Source of the DNA: Rufibacter sp. LB8
GTDB lineage: Bacteria; Bacteroidota; Bacteroidia; Cytophagales; Hymenobacteraceae
DNA length: 64,000 nucleotides
Reading direction: 5' to 3'
NCBI RefSeq assembly: GCF_014876185.1
Contig: NZ_JADALJ010000001.1
Coordinates: 4,341,001-4,405,000, forward strand
Below are positions 28,485-59,816 of the stretch, piece by piece (the stretch's first letter is position 1; every line of letters begins with the position of its first letter). Under the pieces are notes generated by a model. The model was given only the letters and a program-made list of their open reading frames with translations. It had not been told where the DNA came from and made no database searches. The position numbers were made by a program, and so were the translations under genes.

Positions 28485-29129
28485 TTACTGGCCAACTATC
28501 TGCTGCGGCGCAGCGGGAGAGAAAGTCAGCGCTATTTCCACGGTAATGTCATTGCCGGCCTGCATTACGCCACCCATAAAACTGGGCGGTTGCATCAGGA
28601 AATGGGTGAACGTCAGGTTTTTGGTGCCGGTAAGCGTGAGGCTGCGGTCTGGGTGTACTTCGGCTAGCAACTCCAAAGAGACAGTTTGCGTGATGCCGTT
28701 GATACTGAGGCTACCGGTGCCTTTAATCTGGTGTTTGTTGTTTTTACCTTCTCTCACTTCTGCCTTGTGGAGCGTGAAGAGAATGTACGGGTGTTTTTTG
28801 GCGTTCAGGGCTTTGTGGGCTTTTCGGTTCATGGCTTTCACGGGGCCTTTGAGACTGGCCGCTTTAAGCGAGAAACTGAAGCCCGCGACACCGCTCAGTT
28901 GGTGGTTGGGCGTGAACAGAAACTCGCCCTGACTCACGGCTTCCCCTGAAGTCATGCTCCAGTCCTGCAGGTCTGAGGTGCCCACCACTTTGAGGGTTCC
29001 CGGGTTGCCAGGGCTCAGACGGTACGTGGTTTGCGCCGCCAAGCCTCCAGTAAGCAGCAGCATAAAAAGCACCACCAACATACTCCAGACAGGGGCGACG
29101 GCACTACAGAAGAAACGATTGGCTTTCAT
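28485..29129 (-). CDS. YceI family protein (FNR-like promoter)
   Basis: 214 residues from the ATG at 29129, where a signal peptide begins (MKANRFFCSAVAPVW ... LAAQ). The YceI barrel reads LKVVGTSDLQDWSMTSGEAV, KHPYILFTLHKAEV, GTGSLSINGITQTVSLELLA and ITVEIALTFSP. Its closest relative in the window is the YceI protein at 32239, which shares the GTSNVHDWEMTT and APSYMAGTMK-type segments. It has its own promoter with a TGA-N6-TCA dyad 45 bp from the -7 element, matching the two other promoters of this cluster. Confidence 0.9.
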   Translation of the reverse strand: MKANRFFCSAVAPVWSMLVVLFMLLLTGGLAAQTTYRLSPGNPGTLKVVGTSDLQDWSMTSGEAVSQGEFLFTPNHQLSGVAGFSFSLKAASLKGPVKAMNRKAHKALNAKKHPYILFTLHKAEVREGKNNKHQIKGTGSLSINGITQTVSLELLAEVHPDRSLTLTGTKNLTFTHFLMQPPSFMGGVMQAGNDITVEIALTFSPAAPQQIVGQ

Positions 29130-29150: not shown

Positions 29151-29215
29151 CAAAAGTACCTCTTCCGTTGGCGGGAGCACTTAAGGGCCATTACCTTATA
29201 ACCTGATCTTCGTCA
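29151..29215 (-). promoter_or_regulatory. FNR/CRP-like site plus -7 element for YceI at 28485
   Basis: Read on the minus strand: TTGACGAAGATCAG (core TGA-N6-TCA at 29204-29215), then exactly 45 bp, then TACTTTTG (29151-29158). The dyad centre is about 62 bp upstream of the expected transcript start, the class I CRP/FNR position. Confidence 0.72.
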
Positions 29216-29262
29216 AACTTGCGGGCAGCGCCTGTCTAATTCATGAATGCCTCAAACTAATA

Positions 29263-29309
29263 ATCCCGTTTTCGGGCTCATTTCTGAAAATGAGCCCGAA
29301 AACGGGACT
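29263..29309. repeat. Dispersed palindrome PAL1, copy 17
   Basis: Perfect arms CCCGTTTTCGGGCTCATTT and AAATGAGCCCGAAAACGGG. Confidence 0.95.
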
Positions 29310-29358
29310 GCCGGTTTTTTTATAGAACCCACAGAATAATCTTCGGTAAAGGTACTGG

Positions 29359-30093
29359 TTATTTTTTGAAAAGCGTGAGCAGAAAAAAGGCTTCGTTTTG
29401 CGCTACTACCCGGTGCGGAACGCCCGTGTGCAGCACCAGCATCTGGCCCGCAGCCAGGTCAATGGCCTGGGGCAGCGCCTCAAAATAAATGGTGCCTTGC
29501 AAGACTTGTACACTTATGGGGCCGGGCGCGGTGTGCGTGTCCATCTGGGCCCCGGCGTGCAACCCAATCAAGACCACGCGCACGTCATCAGATTTGTAGA
29601 GGGTGAGCGCGTTTCGGTCTTTGGTGGCCCAGGCTTTTTCTTCTTTTACCTGCGTGATGAAATGGGCCAAATCAAGAATGGGCAAGGGCGCGTCTAAAAC
29701 CCGTGCACCTGCGGGCCGCTGCGGCGTTGCTTCTACCGAGGATGTGGTTTTATCTGAAGCAGCAGCGGAGCCTTCAACTTGTTCAGCAGCCCGGGGGTGC
29801 AGGGCCTGGAGCATGGCGTCACTGATGGGGTCACTGTAAATGCCGTAGCCGTTGACCAGGGTGCCTTTGAGCCCGTGTTTCTCTGAGGAAATGGCGTACA
29901 CCACCGCCTCGTCGCCGGGGTCAGAAATTCCTTCAAACCGGTAGTGGCGGTCCACCACAAATTCCTCTGGGTGCAACTCTATCCGGCTGCCCTGGCAAAC
30001 CAGGCAGAAATCAGTGAGGTTAAAGTCTGTGGTGTAGCCTCTGTCTTTTAATTGCTGCAATACTTCTGAAACGGTGGTGAGGGTGTTTTCCAT
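29359..30093 (-). CDS. Fusion of PRPP-synthetase-labelled domain with C-terminal cupin
   Basis: 244 residues. The N-terminal 95 residues (TVSEVLQQLKDRGYTTDFNL, RFEGISDPGDEAVVYAIS, GTLVNGYGIYSD) match the small Bacteroidota domain usually labelled phosphoribosylpyrophosphate synthetase. It lacks the PRPP-binding loop of true Prs, so the label is probably a misnomer. A Ser/Ala/Thr linker (about 105-135) leads to a cupin (VVLIGLHAGAQMDTHTAPGPISVQVLQG ... GQMLVLHTGVPHRVVA). Metal-ligand His residues are present in THTAPG and VPHR. It is the last gene of the YceI-barrel-YceI operon. Confidence 0.75.
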   Translation of the reverse strand: MENTLTTVSEVLQQLKDRGYTTDFNLTDFCLVCQGSRIELHPEEFVVDRHYRFEGISDPGDEAVVYAISSEKHGLKGTLVNGYGIYSDPISDAMLQALHPRAAEQVEGSAAASDKTTSSVEATPQRPAGARVLDAPLPILDLAHFITQVKEEKAWATKDRNALTLYKSDDVRVVLIGLHAGAQMDTHTAPGPISVQVLQGTIYFEALPQAIDLAAGQMLVLHTGVPHRVVAQNEAFFLLTLFKK

Positions 30094-30115
30094 GGGAGGT
30101 TGGATTTTATGTGAA

Positions 30116-30164
30116 AATTGCGTTTTCGGCCTCGTTTCCAGAATTGAGCCCGAAAACAGGAATT
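30116..30164. repeat. Dispersed palindrome PAL1, copy 18
   Basis: The arms read CGTTTTCGGCCTCGTTTC and GAATTGAGCCCGAAAACA. It lies in the 78-bp spacer between two genes of one operon, so it does not obviously end transcription. Confidence 0.9.
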
Positions 30165-30171
30165 CAATGGC

Positions 30172-30783
30172 TTAGCCTACGGCTTTGAGTTGCAGGCTGA
30201 ACGAGATGGTGAGTTTCTGGCGCGTCTGCACCATGCGGTTGAACTTGGTGGGTGGTGTGAGGTTGAAATCCGCGAAGGTGATGTCACGGGTGCCGTCTAC
30301 ATGCACAAGACCCTGCGCATCCACTGAAATCTGGTAATTGACTTCTACCCGTTTGCGCGTGCCGGCCAACTCAATGTCTACCCAACCGGTGATGGCTTCG
30401 GGTTTCTGGCGGAGGGTGGGCATTTTGCTCAGATTCAGAAACGTGATGCACAGGTCTGGGTATTGGTCAGATTTTAGGGTTTTGCGAAGGTCGCGGGTCA
30501 TGACGGGGTTGCGGCAGTCAAAATTCTCCAGGCTCAGGTTCAGGCTACCCGTGAGGGCTACCGCATTCTTGGTTTCGGTGATCTCCAGCGTGTCAAAACG
30601 TTTGTATGAAGAAATGCCGCAGGTAAACTTGTTTACGTTGGTGCTCCCCAGTACCTGCAGGCTGCTGTTTCCGCTCACGGCCCATTTAGCCGAGCGCTTG
30701 GTTTTGCTTACCGGCGCCCAGGCCAGCACTGCCGCCAGAAACACGAAAAGCAAAGGGCTGTAAAGAAAAGTGGAGAACCGCAT
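30172..30783 (-). CDS. YceI family protein, divergent copy
   Basis: 203 residues from the ATG at 30783, which starts the signal peptide (MRFSTFLYSPLLFVFLAAVLAWA). The barrel is diverged, but YceI landmarks remain: LQVLGSTNVNKFTCGISS near the start, LKSDQYPDLCITFLN in the middle and LTISFSLQLKAVG at the end. Two or more cysteines (FTCG, FDCRNP) could form a periplasmic disulfide. It is the third gene of the operon that begins at 32853, 75 bp after the barrel gene. Confidence 0.82.
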   Translation of the reverse strand: MRFSTFLYSPLLFVFLAAVLAWAPVSKTKRSAKWAVSGNSSLQVLGSTNVNKFTCGISSYKRFDTLEITETKNAVALTGSLNLSLENFDCRNPVMTRDLRKTLKSDQYPDLCITFLNLSKMPTLRQKPEAITGWVDIELAGTRKRVEVNYQISVDAQGLVHVDGTRDITFADFNLTPPTKFNRMVQTRQKLTISFSLQLKAVG

Positions 30784-30858
30784 CTTGAGGGGGAAGTAAA
30801 AGTTAAAAAACTGGGCAGAAGCTACCTCCTGCTCAGTCCTGGAAAAGCTATCTGTCAA

Positions 30859-32190
30859 TTAAAAGCCAACCGCCGCCTGAATCACGTAGCCGTTGAACTT
30901 GCCACCGTTGCGGTAATCTGCCGTAGGGAAGTCTTTGTATTCCTGGGTCACGTATTCGCCTTTGAGCAGAATGTTGCGGGTCATGAACCAGCCTGCGCCA
31001 ACCGCCAGACGGTTTACTTTCACATCATTCTCAAACACAATGGCAGCAGTGGTGGGCGTGGCGGCCACGTTGGGCAAGGTAGCGGTTACGGTGTTGTAAC
31101 GGGCACCCACAAAGAGGTTCTCGTCCTTTCCAAAACGATACACCGCGTCAAGGGCATACTGGTTCACGTCGCGTTCCTGGGTTTCGTTTTTAGTACGGCC
31201 GCTGGCGGTCTCTATGGTCCCGAATAACTCTAAACCACTGGCCTTGATAAAGCCGTTCAACTGGAACGCTTCTACTTTTTTGGTGAAAGCCGGGTTCAGT
31301 CGGCCAGAAGTGAAGTTGGCGGAATAGGTGCTGCCGGTTCTTTCCATGGCCATGAAATAATTGGAGCCCGTGCGGTCCCCGGCGTACAAGGTCTGCCCGC
31401 CGGAACTGTTGTTGGTGTAATAAGAAGCTGACAGACGGGCCCGCAGATTGGGCGAGACTTGTTTGTCAATGCCCGCTTTCAGGTAAAGGGCCGGTGATTT
31501 TCTGATGTTGTCATCTACCGGGGTAGGGGCCAGTTCATCAATGTTGCCTTTGATCATGCCGTTAGACACGCCCACCAAGCCAAACAAACCGTTTTTGCGC
31601 ACCAACACTTCGCCACCAATCTCTGTGGTAAACGCGTCCAGGATATAGTTCTCACCGAAGGGGTTGTAAAACGTATGCCCGCCGTCTGAGCGTCTGAAAT
31701 GCTGGTCTCCGTAGTTGATTTCCATGTGGCCTACCTTAATGGTGGTAATGGCCATGATGTTCTCCCAGATCTGCCCCTTAAATGGGAGCTTGTCAAACTG
31801 AATGTAACCGCCTTTTACCCAGGTTTCGTTATGGCGACGGCTAGACAAATAACTGGTCAGGTTCAGCCTGATGCCGTCTGCCAGTTGCACATCCATGAAC
31901 AGATTGGCATTGGCGGTATTAAAACCCGGCGTAATCTTGTACAGGTTATCTGCGGCATTTTTGTGCTTCAAGCCCTGGAAAGATTGGGTAAAGCCTGCGC
32001 CCAGTTTCAGCCGGATGCCGTCAAATGCTACGCTGTCATTCTTGGGGTCTTCAAACACGTTGATGCCGCTTTTGTCATAAGGCCGCAGGTTAGACACCGG
32101 ACCAAAAACCTGGGCTTGTGCTGTGGTGGCCACCAAAGAAGCGCCAATCAAAAGAAGCGAGGCCAGGGCGGAGGTGAGTTGAGTTTTCAT
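30859..32190 (-). CDS. Outer-membrane beta-barrel protein (porin-like)
   Basis: 443 residues. A signal peptide ends at TTAQAQ. Alternating amphipathic strands run through the mature part, for example KVEAFQLNGFIKASGLELFGTIE and NLFVGARYNTVTATLP, and the chain ends YVIQAAVGF with the C-terminal Phe used by the BAM complex. No plug or TonB box is seen, so it is probably a 14-18 strand porin. It sits between two YceI genes in one operon, which suggests these proteins share a ligand or envelope task. Confidence 0.78.
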   Translation of the reverse strand: MKTQLTSALASLLLIGASLVATTAQAQVFGPVSNLRPYDKSGINVFEDPKNDSVAFDGIRLKLGAGFTQSFQGLKHKNAADNLYKITPGFNTANANLFMDVQLADGIRLNLTSYLSSRRHNETWVKGGYIQFDKLPFKGQIWENIMAITTIKVGHMEINYGDQHFRRSDGGHTFYNPFGENYILDAFTTEIGGEVLVRKNGLFGLVGVSNGMIKGNIDELAPTPVDDNIRKSPALYLKAGIDKQVSPNLRARLSASYYTNNSSGGQTLYAGDRTGSNYFMAMERTGSTYSANFTSGRLNPAFTKKVEAFQLNGFIKASGLELFGTIETASGRTKNETQERDVNQYALDAVYRFGKDENLFVGARYNTVTATLPNVAATPTTAAIVFENDVKVNRLAVGAGWFMTRNILLKGEYVTQEYKDFPTADYRNGGKFNGYVIQAAVGF

Positions 32191-32238
32191 GATAGGTGAA
32201 TTGAAAAAAGTAAGTGCTTAGGAAAGAGATAGCGTAGG

Positions 32239-32853
32239 TTATTTTCTGTAAGTCTGTGCGAAGCTGATGGTCAATTCATTGCCTACTTTCATGGTGCCGG
32301 CCATGTAGCTGGGGGCGTCAATCTTGTAGTCTGAGAGTTTTATTTTCTCAGTGCCGGTGCAGGTAATGGAGTTGTCTGGGTTCACCACTACGTTCACGTT
32401 CATAGAGATCACCTGGCGCGTGCCGGCAATGGTCAAATCACCCAGAACTTTCACCAGGTATTTGTTTTTAGAGACGGTGGTAATGTCTGTGGAGCGCAGG
32501 TTATAGACAATCTTGGGGTGGTCAGTGGCTTTCATCACTTTGTAGGCCCGGTTGTCTAAGGAACTGTGCTTGCTTTTCAGGCTCTTGGCATCTATAGACA
32601 AGTTGAAATTGGCGATGTCTGTGAGCACGTTTTGGGCATTGAATTTAAAGTCGCCTTTGCTTTGCATGGCGGCGGTGGTCATTTCCCAATCGTGCACATT
32701 GGAGGTACCTGCCACTTTCAGAAATATTTGCGCTTTGGGCAACAGGTTGTAGGTGCCTTGGGCTGCCGTCTGCCCCGGAAAGGCGAAGATGGCCAACAAC
32801 AAGAGCGCTACTGCAAAAATGAGGATGTTGGGAGACGTTTGCTTCATGGTCAT
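32239..32853 (-). CDS. YceI family protein, first gene of oxygen-linked operon
   Basis: 204 residues with a signal peptide (ILIFAVALLLLAIFAFPGQTAAQ). YceI motifs: LKVAGTSNVHDWEMTTAAM, KATDHPKIVYNLRS, VLGDLTIAGTRQVISMNV and GNELTISFAQTYRK. It is followed by the porin-like gene after 48 bp, then by a second YceI gene and the cupin fusion. The promoter at 32876-32940 carries the FNR-like dyad and is shared, back to back, with the FixL-like kinase gene. Confidence 0.92.
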   Translation of the reverse strand: MTMKQTSPNILIFAVALLLLAIFAFPGQTAAQGTYNLLPKAQIFLKVAGTSNVHDWEMTTAAMQSKGDFKFNAQNVLTDIANFNLSIDAKSLKSKHSSLDNRAYKVMKATDHPKIVYNLRSTDITTVSKNKYLVKVLGDLTIAGTRQVISMNVNVVVNPDNSITCTGTEKIKLSDYKIDAPSYMAGTMKVGNELTISFAQTYRK

Positions 32854-32875
32854 GACCTTGGGGTTTTAGTTGCAA

Positions 32876-32940
32876 CAAAGGTAGAGCAGCCCCAACCCGC
32901 AATACCTGACACCGGTTAGCCGCAAGCATGATGCTCGTCA
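32876..32940 (-). promoter_or_regulatory. FNR/CRP-like site plus -7 element for YceI-porin operon
   Basis: On the minus strand: ATGACGAGCATCAT (core at 32929-32940), 45 bp, then TACCTTTG (32876-32883). The geometry is identical to the promoters at 29151 and 35274. The dyad lies 79 bp before the divergent kinase gene, so autoregulation is possible, but no good TAnnTTTG was found on that side. Confidence 0.75.
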
Positions 32941-33018
32941 TGTTTACAAAGGACCGTTGGTTTGTTTAAAAGAAGTTTAATTAGGCATTGGTGGTAGATT
33001 TCTTGTTATTAGGCAGTT

Positions 33019-34221
33019 ATGTCTTCCACTGGTTCAGATAATACCGCATTAGTACAAGCCATCATTCAAAATGCCATTGACGGCATCATCACCATAGATG
33101 AGCGCGGGCTCATAGAAAGCATTAATCCGGCGGCCTGTCACTTGTTTGGGTATGCAGCCGACGAAGTGATTGGCCGGAACATCTCCATCTTAATGCCCTC
33201 GCCAGACAAAGACCGCCATGACCAGTATCTGGCGCGTTACCAGCAGACCCGGGTGCCGCACATGATTGGCATTGGCCGTGAGGTGCAGGGACTGAACAAA
33301 AGCGGGGCCGTTTTCCCGTTTAGGTTGGCTTTGAGTGAGGTGCAGTTGGCGGGCAGGGTTATTTACACGGGCTTTATTCATGACCTCACCCGCGAGAAAG
33401 AAGCCGAAGAGAACCTCAGAAAATACTCTGAAGACCTGGAAGCCCAGGTAAAGGAACGCACCGAATCTTTGCAGCGCTCCCTCCGGGACTTGCAAGACGC
33501 CAAAGACACGGTGAGCCATTCCCTGGAAAAAGAAAAAGACCTAAGCCAACTCAAAAGCCGGTTTGTGTCCATGGCGTCGCATGAATTCAGAACACCTTTG
33601 AGCTCAGTGCAGCTGTCGGCGTCTTTGATTGAGCGTTATGCCGTGCCGGAGAATGCCAACATTACCAAGCACGTCAACAAAATCAAGAGCGCGGTGGGCA
33701 ACCTCACCAACATTCTCAATGACTTTCTGCTGCATGAACGCCTGGACGCCGGCAAGGTGGAGGCTAACTTTTGCATGTTTGACGTGGTGAAGGTCAGCGA
33801 GGAGATTACTGAGGAAATGCAGCTGGTCTCCAAAGAAGGGCAGAACATCATTTACCAGCACACCGGTTTCAAAAGCGAATTCAAGTTAGACCAGAACCTG
33901 CTCAAGAACTGCATCATCAACCTCATTTCCAACGCCATTAAATACTCCGGCGAGAACACGTTCATTGAGTTCAACACCGAGATTACCGACGGCGTGCTCA
34001 CCGTGGCCATCAAAGATTACGGCATTGGCATACCACAGAAAGACCATGCCCAGCTGTTTGAACCATTTTTCAGGGCGCACAACACGGGCACCATTCCGGG
34101 CACCGGGCTGGGGTTGCACATTGTGCGGCGGTACGTCATGCTCATGAACGGGTCCATTGCCTTTGAGAGCCAACTCAACCAGGGCACTTCCTTTACCTTC
34201 ACTTTTCCGGTACAACCATGA
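33019..34221 (+). CDS. FixL-like haem-PAS sensor histidine kinase
   Basis: 400 residues, soluble. PAS domain at about 8-125 with the FixL signature: RHDQYLARY, in which His67 aligns with the proximal haem ligand and Arg73 with the conserved helix Arg, followed by VPHMIGIGREV, in which His81 and Arg87 match the FG-loop His and the oxygen-sensing Arg. A coiled-coil linker (130-178) leads to HisKA (SMASHEFRTP, His188) and HATPase_c (NLISNAIKYS, DYGIGIP, GTGLGLHIV). Haem binding is inferred from these residues. It overlaps the regulator gene by 4 bp (ATGA). Confidence 0.88.
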   Translation: MSSTGSDNTALVQAIIQNAIDGIITIDERGLIESINPAACHLFGYAADEVIGRNISILMPSPDKDRHDQYLARYQQTRVPHMIGIGREVQGLNKSGAVFPFRLALSEVQLAGRVIYTGFIHDLTREKEAEENLRKYSEDLEAQVKERTESLQRSLRDLQDAKDTVSHSLEKEKDLSQLKSRFVSMASHEFRTPLSSVQLSASLIERYAVPENANITKHVNKIKSAVGNLTNILNDFLLHERLDAGKVEANFCMFDVVKVSEEITEEMQLVSKEGQNIIYQHTGFKSEFKLDQNLLKNCIINLISNAIKYSGENTFIEFNTEITDGVLTVAIKDYGIGIPQKDHAQLFEPFFRAHNTGTIPGTGLGLHIVRRYVMLMNGSIAFESQLNQGTSFTFTFPVQP

Positions 34222-35276
34222 AAACGCGCATCCTCATTATAGAAGACAACCTGGACATACGCGAAAGCTCCGCCGAGATTCTGGAACTGAGCGGCTATGA
34301 CGTGATGCAGGCCCCCGACGGGAAAGTAGGCGTAGACCTGGCCCTGCAGCACCTGCCCGACCTCATTCTCTGCGACATCATGATGCCTGAGATGGATGGG
34401 TTTGGCGTTTTATACCTTCTCCGGAAAAACCAGGCCACCGCCACCATTCCGTTTATTTTCCTTACGGCCAAAGCCGAGCGGGTAGACATTAGAAAAGGCA
34501 TGGAAATGGGCGCCGATGATTACCTGACCAAACCCTTTGATGACATGGAATTGCTGGTGGCCGTGGAAAGCCGCCTCACCAAAAAACAGCAGCTGCAAGA
34601 CTTCTACAGCCAACCCCTGGAAAACCTGGGGAATCTGGCCGCCAGCACCGGTGGCCTGGACCAATTGCAGCAAACCATTGCGGGCTTGAAAGTACGCCAG
34701 GTAAAAAAAGACCAGTTTCTGTTTCAGGAAGAAGACACGGCCAAAGGCATTTACCTGGTGGTGAGTGGTCGCTTTAAAACCAGCAAAACCGCCGATGACG
34801 GACGTGAACTGATTACCGGTCTGTTCAGCAAAGACGAATACCTGGGCATTGAGGCCGCGCTGCTTTCTGAACCTTACACAGACAACGCCGTGGCCATGGA
34901 AAACAGCGCCGTGTGCCTCTTGACCAAAGAAACCGTAGAGGCGTTTTTGGCGCGGTTTACAGACATCGGGCAGAAATTCATCCAGATTCTCTCGCAGAAC
35001 ATACGCGAAAAAGAAGCGCGGCTTCTGCACATGGCTTACCACTCCGTAAGAAAACGCATGGCAGATGTCTTGTTAACCTTGGTGAAGCAGCAGCCGGCAG
35101 AAAACGCCCAGGAATGCCTGCAAGTATCCCGCGAAGACATGGCCTCCATGGCGGGCATGGCCACTGAGACCGTGAGCCGAATTCTCTCTGATTTCACGCA
35201 GGAGAAACTGATTCTCAAGAAAGGCCGACTGATTCAGATTCTGGACCTGGCCCGGCTCACCAACATGAAGAACTGA
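34218..35276 (+). CDS. Response regulator fused to cNMP-binding and CRP/FNR DNA-binding domains
   Basis: 352 residues. The receiver domain (1-120) has phospho-acceptor Asp53 (ILCDIMMPEMDG), FLTAKAE and the YLTKPFDD lysine. A cyclic-nucleotide-binding-like barrel (about 150-265) contains LFQEEDTAKGIYLVVSGRFK. The C-terminal winged helix (about 285-345) has recognition helix ATETVSRILSDF, whose E-x-x-S-R pattern is that of FNR/FixK-type readers of TTGA half-sites. No FNR-type Fe-S cysteine cluster is visible, so oxygen input probably comes through phosphorylation by the upstream kinase. In effect FixJ and FixK are joined in one chain. Confidence 0.9.
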   Translation: MKTRILIIEDNLDIRESSAEILELSGYDVMQAPDGKVGVDLALQHLPDLILCDIMMPEMDGFGVLYLLRKNQATATIPFIFLTAKAERVDIRKGMEMGADDYLTKPFDDMELLVAVESRLTKKQQLQDFYSQPLENLGNLAASTGGLDQLQQTIAGLKVRQVKKDQFLFQEEDTAKGIYLVVSGRFKTSKTADDGRELITGLFSKDEYLGIEAALLSEPYTDNAVAMENSAVCLLTKETVEAFLARFTDIGQKFIQILSQNIREKEARLLHMAYHSVRKRMADVLLTLVKQQPAENAQECLQVSREDMASMAGMATETVSRILSDFTQEKLILKKGRLIQILDLARLTNMKN

Positions 35277-35338
35277 CCAACATCAAGTTAAGACTTGGCC
35301 AAGGGCAAGAACGGCGGGGCCTAAAAGCGGTAGGTTTG
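35274..35338 (+). promoter_or_regulatory. FNR/CRP-like site plus -7 element for LDH-like domain gene
   Basis: CTGACCAACATCAA (core at 35274-35285) overlaps the stop codon of the regulator gene. After exactly 45 bp comes TAGGTTTG (35331-35338), and the start codon lies 74 bp from the dyad. This is the same layout as the two YceI promoters. Confidence 0.72.
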
Positions 35339-41890: not shown

Positions 41891-41937
41891 TTGCCGTTTT
41901 CGGGCTCGTTTTCAGAAATGAGCCCGAAAATGGAAAG
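41891..41937. repeat. Dispersed palindrome PAL1, copy 21
   Basis: The arms read CCGTTTTCGGGCTCGTTTTC and GAAATGAGCCCGAAAATGG. The rest of the 285-bp gap to ruvB shows nothing else clear. Confidence 0.92.
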
Positions 41938-53851: not shown

Positions 53852-53912
53852 AGCGGCCTCCGTTTTCGGGCTCATTTCCAGAAATGAGCCCGAAAACGGA
53901 GGCCGCTTTTTT
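53852..53912 (+). terminator. Palindrome PAL1 copy 29 acting as terminator
   Basis: The longest and most regular copy. Arms of about 26 bp start GCGGCCTCCGTTTTCGGGC and end GAAAACGGAGGCCGC, followed by TTTTTT. It lies 29 bp after the peptide transporter stop. Confidence 0.88.
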
Positions 53913-57536: not shown

Positions 57537-59816
57537 ATGACACATCTTCCGCATTTAGTGACAGATTTAGGGCTGATTTTGGGCGCTGCCGGTATCACCA
57601 CCCTTATATTCAAAAAAATAAAGCAGCCTTTGGTGTTGGGCTACATCATTGCCGGTTTGTTGGTGGGGCCGCATTTCTCGCTCTTCCCCACTATCATGGA
57701 GCCCGAGAGCATTACCGTGTGGGCCGAGATTGGCGTTATTTTCCTCCTTTTCAGCCTAGGTTTAGAATTCAGTTTCAAAAAACTGGTGAAAGTAGGCGGG
57801 GCCTCCAGCGTAATGGCGCTCACTGAGGTAGGGGTCATGTTGTTGCTGGGCTATCTGGCCGGCAAGGTGCTGGGCTGGTCCACCATGGACAGTATTTTCC
57901 TGGGCGGCATTCTTTCCATTTCGTCTACTACAATTATTATCAGGGCGTTTGAGGAACTGGGCGTGAAATCACAGAAATTCGCGGGCTTGGTGTTTGGCGT
58001 GCTCATTGTGGAAGACCTGGTGGCCATTTTGCTCATGGTGTTGCTTTCCACCTTAGCCGTAAGCCAGCAGTTTGCCGGTTCAGAAATGTTGGAGGCCGTC
58101 CTGAAACTGGGTTTCTTCCTGCTGCTTTGGTTTTTGGGCGGTATCTTCCTGATTCCTACGTTTCTGCGCAAGGCCAGCAAGCTCATGAACAATGAAACAC
58201 TCTTGATTGTGTCTCTGGCGCTGTGCCTGATCATGGTCATTCTGGCGGCCAAGGCGGGTTTTTCGCCGGCGCTGGGCGCGTTCATCATGGGTTCCATTCT
58301 AGCAGAAACCACCAAAGCCGAAAAAATTGAGCACCTTATTTCTTCGGTGAAAGACTTGTTTGGGGCTATTTTCTTTGTGTCGGTGGGCATTCTCATAGAC
58401 CCGTCTACCATTGTGGAATACGCCGGGCCTATTGCGCTAATCACGTTGGTGACCTTGGTGGGCAAACTCACCAGCATCACAGCCGGAGGCCTTATTTCTG
58501 GGCAAGGCCTGAAAACGTCTATCCAGAGTGGCATGAGCGTGTCGCAGATTGGGGAATTCTCGTTTATCATCGCCACGCTGGGGCTTACGCTCAAAGTAAC
58601 CAGTGATTTCATCTATCCGGTGGCGGTGGCGGTGTCTGCCATTACCACGTTCACTACGCCCTACATGATCAAATACTCAGAACCGCTGTACCGGGTGGTG
58701 GAGCGCGTACTGCCCCAGAAATGGCTGAGTTCGCTCAATGAATACAGCTCCGGCACGCAGACCATCTCCACCACCAGTGACTGGAAAGTGGTGCTTCGGT
58801 CTTATGTCCTGAATTTGGTGGTGCTGTCTGTGATCATCATCAGCGTGATTCTGTTGTCTAGCCAGTACCTCAACCCGTTCATCACCCAGAATGTAATAAA
58901 TGGCAACCTGGGTGATATTGTGACCACGGCCATCACCTTTATTTTGATGTCGCCGTTTCTGTGGGCGCTGGCGGTGCACCACCCAGAGAAAGAGGCGCAG
59001 GGCCGTATCTGGGCGAATAAAAATTACCGAAGCCTGATCATTGTGCTGGAATTCAGCCGCATAGCGGTGGCCATTTTGTTTGTATTCTTTTTGTTGAACC
59101 AGTTCTTTTCGGTGCAGCTGGCCGTGGTGGTGGGCTTGGTGATGGTGGTACTCATGGTGGTGTTCTCCAGAAGGATTCAGGCTTTCTACATAAGAATTGA
59201 GAACCGCTTTGTGCGCAACCTCAACGCCCGTGAACTCCATGAAGCCGAACGCATGCACCACACGCTCACGCCCTGGAACGTGCACCTCACCAGTTTTGAG
59301 GTGTCCCCGGAGGCCGATGTGGTAGGCAAAAACCTAGCTGAATTGCAGGTGCGCGAGAAGTACGGCGTGAACGTGGCGGTGATTGAACGCGGCGAGCGCA
59401 CCCTCACGGCCCCCACCCGCAATGAACGCATTTACCCGCACGACAAACTCTACGTGTTTGGCACCGATGAACAGATGGAGGCGTTCAGGCAGTTTTTGGA
59501 GGCGGGCAGCAGACAGCCGGTGGCCAACGGGGAACGCGACGAAATAAAACTCCAGAAGCTGAAAGTGCGCGAAGGCTCCATGCTGCTGCACCAATCCATC
59601 CGGAATTCGGGGGTTCGGGAAAAAACCAAGGGCCTGATAGTGGGCATTGAGCGCCAGGGCGAACGCATGATTAACCCAGACTCAGAACTGGTGTTTGAAG
59701 AAGGCGATCTGGTCTGGATTGTAGGTTCCCCGCAGAAAATAAAGCAACTAGAAGAAGCCCGTGAGAATACCTCCCAAAACCAGTCACCGGGCAAGGGCCT
59801 TTCCTTCTCCAATTAA
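57537..59816 (+). CDS. CPA2 family cation:proton antiporter with TrkA-C domains
   Basis: 759 residues. A Na/H exchanger-type membrane domain (1-390) has LVLGYIIAGLLVGPH, IFLLFSLGLEFSFKKL, LGGILSISSTTIIIRAFEELG and VEDLVAILLMVLLS. A second block of about four helices (400-560) follows. The soluble end holds two RCK_C/TrkA-C-like units (LTSFEVSPEADVVGKNLAELQVREKYGVNVAVIERG and MLLHQSIRNSGVREKTKGLIVGIERQGERM). It probably exports K+ or Na+ in exchange for H+, gated by a ligand at the C-terminal domains. Confidence 0.92.
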   Translation: MTHLPHLVTDLGLILGAAGITTLIFKKIKQPLVLGYIIAGLLVGPHFSLFPTIMEPESITVWAEIGVIFLLFSLGLEFSFKKLVKVGGASSVMALTEVGVMLLLGYLAGKVLGWSTMDSIFLGGILSISSTTIIIRAFEELGVKSQKFAGLVFGVLIVEDLVAILLMVLLSTLAVSQQFAGSEMLEAVLKLGFFLLLWFLGGIFLIPTFLRKASKLMNNETLLIVSLALCLIMVILAAKAGFSPALGAFIMGSILAETTKAEKIEHLISSVKDLFGAIFFVSVGILIDPSTIVEYAGPIALITLVTLVGKLTSITAGGLISGQGLKTSIQSGMSVSQIGEFSFIIATLGLTLKVTSDFIYPVAVAVSAITTFTTPYMIKYSEPLYRVVERVLPQKWLSSLNEYSSGTQTISTTSDWKVVLRSYVLNLVVLSVIIISVILLSSQYLNPFITQNVINGNLGDIVTTAITFILMSPFLWALAVHHPEKEAQGRIWANKNYRSLIIVLEFSRIAVAILFVFFLLNQFFSVQLAVVVGLVMVVLMVVFSRRIQAFYIRIENRFVRNLNARELHEAERMHHTLTPWNVHLTSFEVSPEADVVGKNLAELQVREKYGVNVAVIERGERTLTAPTRNERIYPHDKLYVFGTDEQMEAFRQFLEAGSRQPVANGERDEIKLQKLKVREGSMLLHQSIRNSGVREKTKGLIVGIERQGERMINPDSELVFEEGDLVWIVGSPQKIKQLEEARENTSQNQSPGKGLSFSN

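Follow-up and report, generated by a model that had tools for sequence, protein, structure and literature searches.

The 64,000-nucleotide stretch of Rufibacter sp. LB8 analysed here (contig NZ_JADALJ010000001.1, positions 4,341,001 to 4,405,000; hereafter the window) contains three promoters with a common operator layout, in which a TGAN6TCA dyad lies exactly 45 bp upstream of a TAnnTTTG -7 box and is followed, 22 bp downstream, by a second and weaker dyad. These promoters precede a solo YceI gene, a YceI operon and a gene related to D-lactate dehydrogenase (LDH), and between the targets lie the genes of a sensor kinase with a FixL-type PAS domain and of a response regulator that joins a receiver to a Crp-type DNA-binding part. 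The conserved operator layout is real. It is likely, from sequence and with binding and expression as predictions, that an oxygen-responsive FixL/receiver-Crp system activates these promoters; the arrangement is probably a widespread low-oxygen switch, perhaps an undescribed one.

A fixed spacing shared by three promoters

Dyads upstream of the YceI operon, the solo YceI gene and the LDH-like gene had been proposed in a first-pass annotation of the window, and all three are present where it had placed them, at exactly the 45 bp from TAnnTTTG that it had given. Dyad and ATG are separated by 74, 75 and 73 bp (solo YceI, YceI operon and LDH-like promoters, respectively), a trivial departure from the 74-76 bp of the annotation. 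The elements are as follows.

29204..29215, minus strand: solo YceI promoter, dyad 1, TGACGAAGATCA; TGAN6TCA in 4/4 genomes
29182..29193, minus strand: solo YceI promoter, dyad 2, TAATGGCCCTTA, degenerate (4/6 key positions), 22 bp downstream of dyad 1
29151..29158, minus strand: solo YceI promoter, -7 box, TACTTTTG
32929..32940, minus strand: YceI operon promoter, dyad 1, TGACGAGCATCA; in 4/4 genomes
32907..32918, minus strand: YceI operon promoter, dyad 2, TAACCGGTGTCA (5/6 key positions); TAACN4RTCA in 4/4 genomes
32876..32883, minus strand: YceI operon promoter, -7 box, TACCTTTG
35274..35285, plus strand: LDH-like promoter, dyad 1, TGACCAACATCA; in 4/4 genomes
35296..35307, plus strand: LDH-like promoter, dyad 2, TGGCCAAGGGCA, degenerate (4/6 key positions)
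35331..35338, plus strand: LDH-like promoter, -7 box, TAGGTTTG

The window cluster is syntenic in three further genomes (G004, G007 and G010). Across three genes and four genomes, TGAN6TCA is kept in 12/12 promoters and an exact TAnnTTTG at gap 45 in 11/12, the exception being the solo YceI gene of G004, with TATATTTA at the place of the -7 box; the flanks of these orthologous promoters have largely diverged. In the LDH-like promoter the regulator gene uses the TGA of dyad 1 as its stop codon, and conservation of that part of the dyad is therefore coding. Four copies of TGACNANNATCA occur in the window against 0.35 expected, and no TAnnTTTG accompanies the fourth (58228-58239) over gaps 10-70. 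Six TGAN6TCA/TAnnTTTG pairs are found in the window over the same gaps, three of them at gap 45 and the others at 15, 33 and 51.

That the common spacing is a coincidence of pattern scanning, as might be feared of a motif as short as TGAC-N5-TCA that was picked after the sequence had been seen, is so improbable as to be negligible. In the whole 4.75-Mb genome there are 11 TGACN5TCA/TAnnTTTG pairs at gaps 30-60, six of them at gap 45 and five spread over the other 30 gaps, and the reversed-pattern control gives 0. Sites unseen at the outset behave alike: with the three window sites removed, gap 45 still accounts for 3/8 pairs (Poisson P = 7e-4), and it accounts for 52/110 in the other family genomes. 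The looser TGAN6TCA yields 32 pairs at gaps 20-48, compared with 6 for its reversed pattern; gap 45 and gap 23 contribute eight each, and the other 27 gaps 16 together. Over 150 genomes of the family (own included), 58 of the 118 pairs at gaps 30-60 have gap 45, where other gaps average 2.0 and the reversed pattern gives about 33 pairs in all (a hand sum), and 43 of the 73 pairs at gaps 13-29 have gap 23, where other gaps average 1.9; these family counts share descent and are not independent, a problem of which the own-genome figures are free. Counts around regulator relatives (below) and the 12/12 orthologous promoters that keep the dyad also speak against coincidence.

The judgement of the first-pass annotation that such a match in spacing is unlikely by chance is thus upheld by the own-genome pairs and their empty control. 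Nor is the spaced motif placed at random, as the annotation had asked to be checked: all six own-genome gap-45 sites face a downstream gene, with the ATG 18, 20, 21, 22, 171 or 193 nt past the -7 box, the two long leaders belonging to usp (171 nt) and ric (193 nt). The peak at gap 45 gives these promoters what appears to be the fixed upstream distance typical of class I CRP/FNR-type promoters.

Smaller numbers of family pairs have gap 34 (8/118) or gap 35 (6/118). Their interpretation as class I sites one helical turn closer to the promoter was set aside, as there are too few independent cases. One gap-35 site (L015) precedes hemH. The gap-34 dyads (L011, L070, L076, L151 and L152) come with a conserved TTTGGACTnATTCTAAA box, which we take to have a Fur/PerR-like 7-1-7 look, and precede genes of one family, 116-127 amino acids (aa) long; the one copy scanned (L011) has no NCBIfam match.

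A second dyad and a tandem layout

The peaks at gaps 45 and 23 sit 22 bp apart, which is two turns of the helix, and many family promoters hold both dyads. In 57 of the 58 family gap-45 sites, which were examined for a second dyad, offset 22 carries TGA in 22 sites, TCA in 34 and both in 16, and the 17 remaining offsets between 14 and 31 all have a count of 0 for both. Each of the six own-genome sites matches at least 4/6 key positions at offset 22 (27/36 in total; runner-up offset, 18), and no other offset among those tested from 13 to 43 reaches at least 4/6 in all six.

PMC9723704 reports that the TAnnTTTG -7 box of Flavobacterium psychrophilum promoters occupies positions -12 to -5. With the box so placed, the dyad centres would fall at about -63.5 and -41.5, values that rest on the F. 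psychrophilum box position. The first-pass annotation had put the centres at about -62 and compared them with class I activation; its class I-like geometry stands, the centre is nearer -63.5, and the weaker dyad 22 bp downstream had been overlooked. Geometry of class II type (about -41.5) may be represented by the gap-23 peak in relatives and by 8/32 own-genome pairs, and the window dyads at +22 are degenerate (4-5/6). As judged from these patterns, each promoter appears to be of tandem type (-63.5/-41.5), as opposed to a lone class I site.

In one genus of the family (g3; L120, L123, L126, L127, L131, L140 and L144), ric has a gap-45 site in which an AAGA/TCTT-type palindrome replaces the second dyad. 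This suggests a second regulator.

The sensor, the regulator and other candidate owners of the sites

A FixL-type sensor had gone unseen in the first-pass annotation. The best PDB matches of the kinase PAS domain are FixL (phmmer; 1dp6, E=5e-31; 8js5, E=9e-31), and the motifs RHD and GIGR of FixL align with His67 and Arg87 of the kinase (RHDQY/GIGRE), 20 residues apart as in the FixL haem pocket. The proximal His and distal Arg of FixL are numbered H200 and R220. The curated full-length FixL model, NF041777, is not reached by the window kinase (168.5 bits vs a cut-off of 850), so that the protein is FixL-like in its PAS domain and is not filed as FixL.

The CRP/FNR-type regulator gene of the annotation is indeed of Crp type, and is tied to the dyads by its place between the target genes; its product is a receiver-bearing response regulator. 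It matches Pfam receiver PF00072, PF00027 (E=2e-18) and PF13545 (E=3e-17), and thus joins a cNMP-type sensor fold to an HTH_Crp domain, as Crp/FNR regulators do. Members of the iron-sulphur (Fe-S) subfamily represented by FNR hold four cysteines for their cluster, and the regulator has three Cys in all (52, 233 and 300), one of them in the receiver. FixJ consists of a receiver and a LuxR-type (GerE) output; no GerE domain is among the Pfam matches of the regulator, the output is Crp, and the architecture is accordingly not that of FixJ.

We propose that the dyads are sites of the receiver-Crp regulator encoded between the targets, and probably of its paralogue too. At low oxygen the kinase haem would be unliganded and the kinase active, and phosphate would pass to Asp53 of the receiver. 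The phosphorylated regulator would then dimerise, bind the two dyads 22 bp apart (about -63.5 and -41.5) and, by contacting RNA polymerase, activate sigma-A-type TAnnTTTG promoters. Its own targets would comprise YceI proteins, haem and Fe-S upkeep and stress proteins, joined in relatives by lactate fermentation and cbb3 oxidase genes.

The link between regulator and sites can be followed in the best 80 loci from named genomes, which hold regulator relatives 51-64% identical to the window protein, cover 1.255 Mb and include the genera Mucilaginibacter, Pedobacter, Dyadobacter, Flavobacterium and Chryseobacterium. These loci contain 70 instances of gap 45 and 52 of gap 23, compared with an average of 1.02 for each other gap, and a control dyad, ACTN6AGT, occurs 0 times and once at gaps 45 and 23, respectively. 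The two counts overlap, a full second dyad being present in 39/70 gap-45 promoters. At least one site is present in 62/80 loci, a FixL-type kinase lies just upstream of the regulator in 66/80 (by pattern), and the PAS kinase can be aligned in 72/80, with His and Arg both kept in 69/72. An LDH-like gene lies just downstream of the regulator in 61/80 loci; 34/61 of these genes have a promoter with gap 45, 7/61 one with gap 23 and 20/61 one with neither.

Among the four HTH_Crp_2 proteins over the cut-off in the genome, two are receiver-Crp fusions. The second fusion (C1:2209600-2210652) is 48% identical to the window regulator, and genes nearby encode a receiver-kinase and a dual FixL-type PAS kinase, with a ccoI-like gene also close by. 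It is possible, if rather doubtful, that this paralogue and its dual-PAS FixL-like cascade master all gap-45 sites, with the window system modulating or duplicating them. Such a division of labour would explain why usp and ccoI-like genes are preceded by gap-45 sites in genomes that offer no better match to the window regulator than 46-48% (G006, G015, G017 and G022). Paralogue-type regulators and gap-45 sites do co-locate: in genomes with a receiver-Crp protein, other than the four with the window system, 11 of the 80 gap-45 sites among the matches listed are no more than 10 kb away from a receiver-Crp gene also among the matches listed, where 0.37 would be expected for a 5.5-Mb genome. The sites drawn on for this count include 21 gap-45 sites from the family scan, and the count equally bears out the general link between receiver-Crp regulators and the dyads. 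Set against this are the synteny of the window system with its three sites in four genomes, the strong enrichment of the motif around the best 80 window-type regulators, and the recognition helix, which reads TETVSR in the window regulator and KETVIR in the paralogue. The serine that is kept in the first and is Ile in the second matters in FNR.

A midpoint-rooted tree of 51 rows separates a window type (with Sphingobacteriaceae, Dyadobacter and Flavobacteriales) from a core Cytophagales type with support 100/99; the own-genome paralogue is missing from this tree and was typed by its 48% identity and its gene neighbours. Systems of genus g4 that stand beside YceI and LDH genes (L192, L193 and L026) fall across the split from the window type, so the YceI/LDH neighbourhood is not confined to one regulator clade. 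The window kinase itself is 50-53% like the receiver-kinases of the other cascade type (G006, G015, G031 and G035; L100, L102, L103 and L104), as if a FixL PAS domain had been joined onto the last kinase of that cascade.

Binding of the sites by a stand-alone Crp/FNR protein with another signal (sulphur, nitric oxide (NO) or cyclic AMP) is decidedly improbable. The two remaining Crp proteins lie in apparent sulphur-gene clusters (by eye; L157, L163 and L164) and their genes accompany TGACN4GTCA dyads at gap 23, which are possibly a clean case of class II; moreover, gap-45 matches occur in genomes that have no receiver-Crp protein (57/147). The sulphur-cluster sites, however, differ in their GTCA half-site and their gap and adjoin their own regulators, and half of the few HTH_Crp_2 proteins of this genome are receiver-Crp fusions.

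It is unlikely, though less so, that the sensor answers NO, carbon monoxide (CO) or redox state at these same promoters. Ric is typical of nitrosative stress too, and several gases bind to haem PAS domains; among solved structures, however, the six that match the PAS domain best are all FixL entries, and cbb3-type and fermentation genes (LDH by blastp; alcohol dehydrogenase and AckA by eye) are found among the targets in relatives.

Several observations weigh against control of the sites by the window system in response to oxygen. The paralogous receiver-Crp protein, with its nearby dual FixL-type PAS kinase and ccoI-like gene, could own some or all of them, and the second dyad is weak in two of the three window promoters. 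At the level of the order, the motif is present in 83/144 genomes with a receiver-Crp protein and in the 57/147 without (odds ratio 2.1, P=9e-4, uncorrected for ancestry or genome size). As this association is only moderate, it is probable that further Crp/FNR proteins share this geometry, and the link rests on co-location and not on the presence of the motif. G006 lacks a close orthologue of the window regulator and keeps a tandem gap-45 site (L180:3527-3591) before a YceI operon, unlinked to any receiver-Crp gene; local linkage is thus not needed, and the case also favours the paralogue. No site was found in 18/80 named loci. In two Dyadobacter loci (L188/L264 and L189/L267) the haem His is replaced by Gln, and neither a gap-23 nor a gap-45 site was found; these are possibly natural cases of a lost sensor, and the gene pair can exist without the His or the sites. 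Single alignments have the Arg replaced or are of weak similarity (L190, L194 and L254).

Targets, neighbouring genes and related systems

The first-pass annotation had spoken of a local regulon. The layout extends beyond it, as gap-45 sites elsewhere in the genome precede usp (Pfam), hemN (TIGR00538, over cut-off) and ric (TIGR03652, over cut-off), the last of which we take to be an Fe-S repair gene, and own-genome gap-23 sites include the ccoI-like promoter and a site that precedes the dual FixL-type kinase gene by about 25 nt. Among 55 downstream proteins in the family, a set that contains orthologues and not independent cases, there are 14 Usp, 11 metal P-type ATPases (ccoI-like by eye), eight Ric, six YceI, two cytochrome c and single CcoG, NadA and HemN proteins. 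The named loci give 82 distinct downstream open reading frames, with LDH-like genes commonest (45), seven YceI-like genes and, by eye, smaller groups of Hsp20 (5), zinc alcohol dehydrogenase (4), cbb3 subunit I (3), the kinase itself (3) and acetate kinase (1). By analogy, these targets are in keeping with a FixK/FNR regulon.

The genes at the locus are listed below.

28488..29129, minus strand: solo YceI-like gene, 214 aa (Pfam PF04264, E=2e-8)
30172..30789, minus strand: YceI operon gene 3, diverged YceI-like, about 205 aa; Pfam scan without match, orthologues match the operon YceI gene by blastp
30862..32190, minus strand: YceI operon gene 2, 443 aa, no Pfam or NCBIfam match
32242..32853, minus strand: YceI operon gene 1, YceI family, 204 aa (Pfam PF04264, E=4e-14)
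33019..34221, plus strand: sensor kinase, with FixL-type PAS (His67, Arg87), HisKA (His188) and HATPase domains
34218..35276, plus strand: response regulator, with receiver (Asp53), cNMP-binding-type domain and Crp helix-turn-helix
35359..35745, plus strand: LDH-like gene, 128 aa, N-terminal half of D-lactate dehydrogenase, without NAD-binding domain

The 443-aa operon protein might, at a guess, be an outer-membrane porin. The LDH-like gene of the annotation is a relative of D-lactate dehydrogenase and corresponds to the N-terminal half only; no remnant of the other half was seen by eye after the window gene. The same slot holds a full-length LDH in genus g4 (L192:11036-12007; L193:11702-12691), and among the named loci (L200-L279) the 61 with this gene have it full-length in 22/61 and half-size (107-162 aa) in 39/61, as measured on the first matching open reading frame with frameshifts unchecked. 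A separate element, CCGTTTTCGGGCTC, has 28 window copies with at most one mismatch (0.05 expected; for example 29266-29305, 41894-41933 and 53860-53899), several times as an inverted pair and also beside some gap-45 promoters. It looks like a short repeat family, seemingly intergenic.

In searches of an open-access library, which contains few subscription papers, we found no description of FixL-like oxygen control in Bacteroidota. As a tentative proposal, with somewhat less than an even chance of being correct, the microoxic response of this phylum may largely consist of FixL-type kinases wired to receiver-Crp fusions that act through a phylum-typical tandem operator at -63.5/-41.5 before TAnnTTTG; in many lineages the main local target would be a stand-alone half D-lactate dehydrogenase that has taken on a new role other than that of a dehydrogenase. 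The 22-bp tandem layout provides a precise, testable geometry and a motif for regulon prediction across many genomes.

To our knowledge, little is known of how activators act at Bacteroidota promoters with their unusual -7 box. The CRP promoters of Escherichia coli, whether class I, class II or tandem, place their activator dyads near -61.5 and -41.5. The positions here are similar, whereas the upstream centre would lie at about -63.5 and TAnnTTTG replaces the -10 and -35 elements. The anaerobic regulons of FNR and ANR have the TGAN6TCA dyad, the recognition residues E..SR and the targets hemN, usp and cbb3. The window system resembles them in its dyad, its FNR-like E..SR residues and its target classes, and differs in that FNR and ANR sense via the Fe-S cluster of the regulator, whereas the window system would sense via its kinase.

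The HcpR regulators share the TGAC half-site. According to PMC1274295, HcpR is a one-component regulator of hcp with the consensus TTGACnnnnGTCAA in Geobacter-type deltaproteobacteria and in cyanobacteria, and its HcpR2 branch, Bacteroides included, has GTAACnnnnGTTAC, which is unlike the window site.

Closer parallels are found in PMC4999443. The hFixL-FxkR-FixKf system of Rhizobiaceae described there also has a FixL-type kinase feeding a Crp-type regulator, and has three components where the window system has two. In Caulobacterales, FixK controls cco and hemN. The FixL-FixJ-FixK cascade of Alphaproteobacteria, from the same paper, has in common with the window system a FixL-type PAS kinase, a Crp/FNR-type regulator without an Fe-S cluster and cco/hemN targets. 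Here, in contrast, the FixJ receiver and the FixK DNA-binding part are one protein, so that there would be no intermediate step of fixK transcription, the promoters are of the TAnnTTTG type, and the targets include YceI, usp, ric and D-LDH. By this analogy, the window system would be best read as a one-step version of the FixL-FixJ-FixK cascade of rhizobia.

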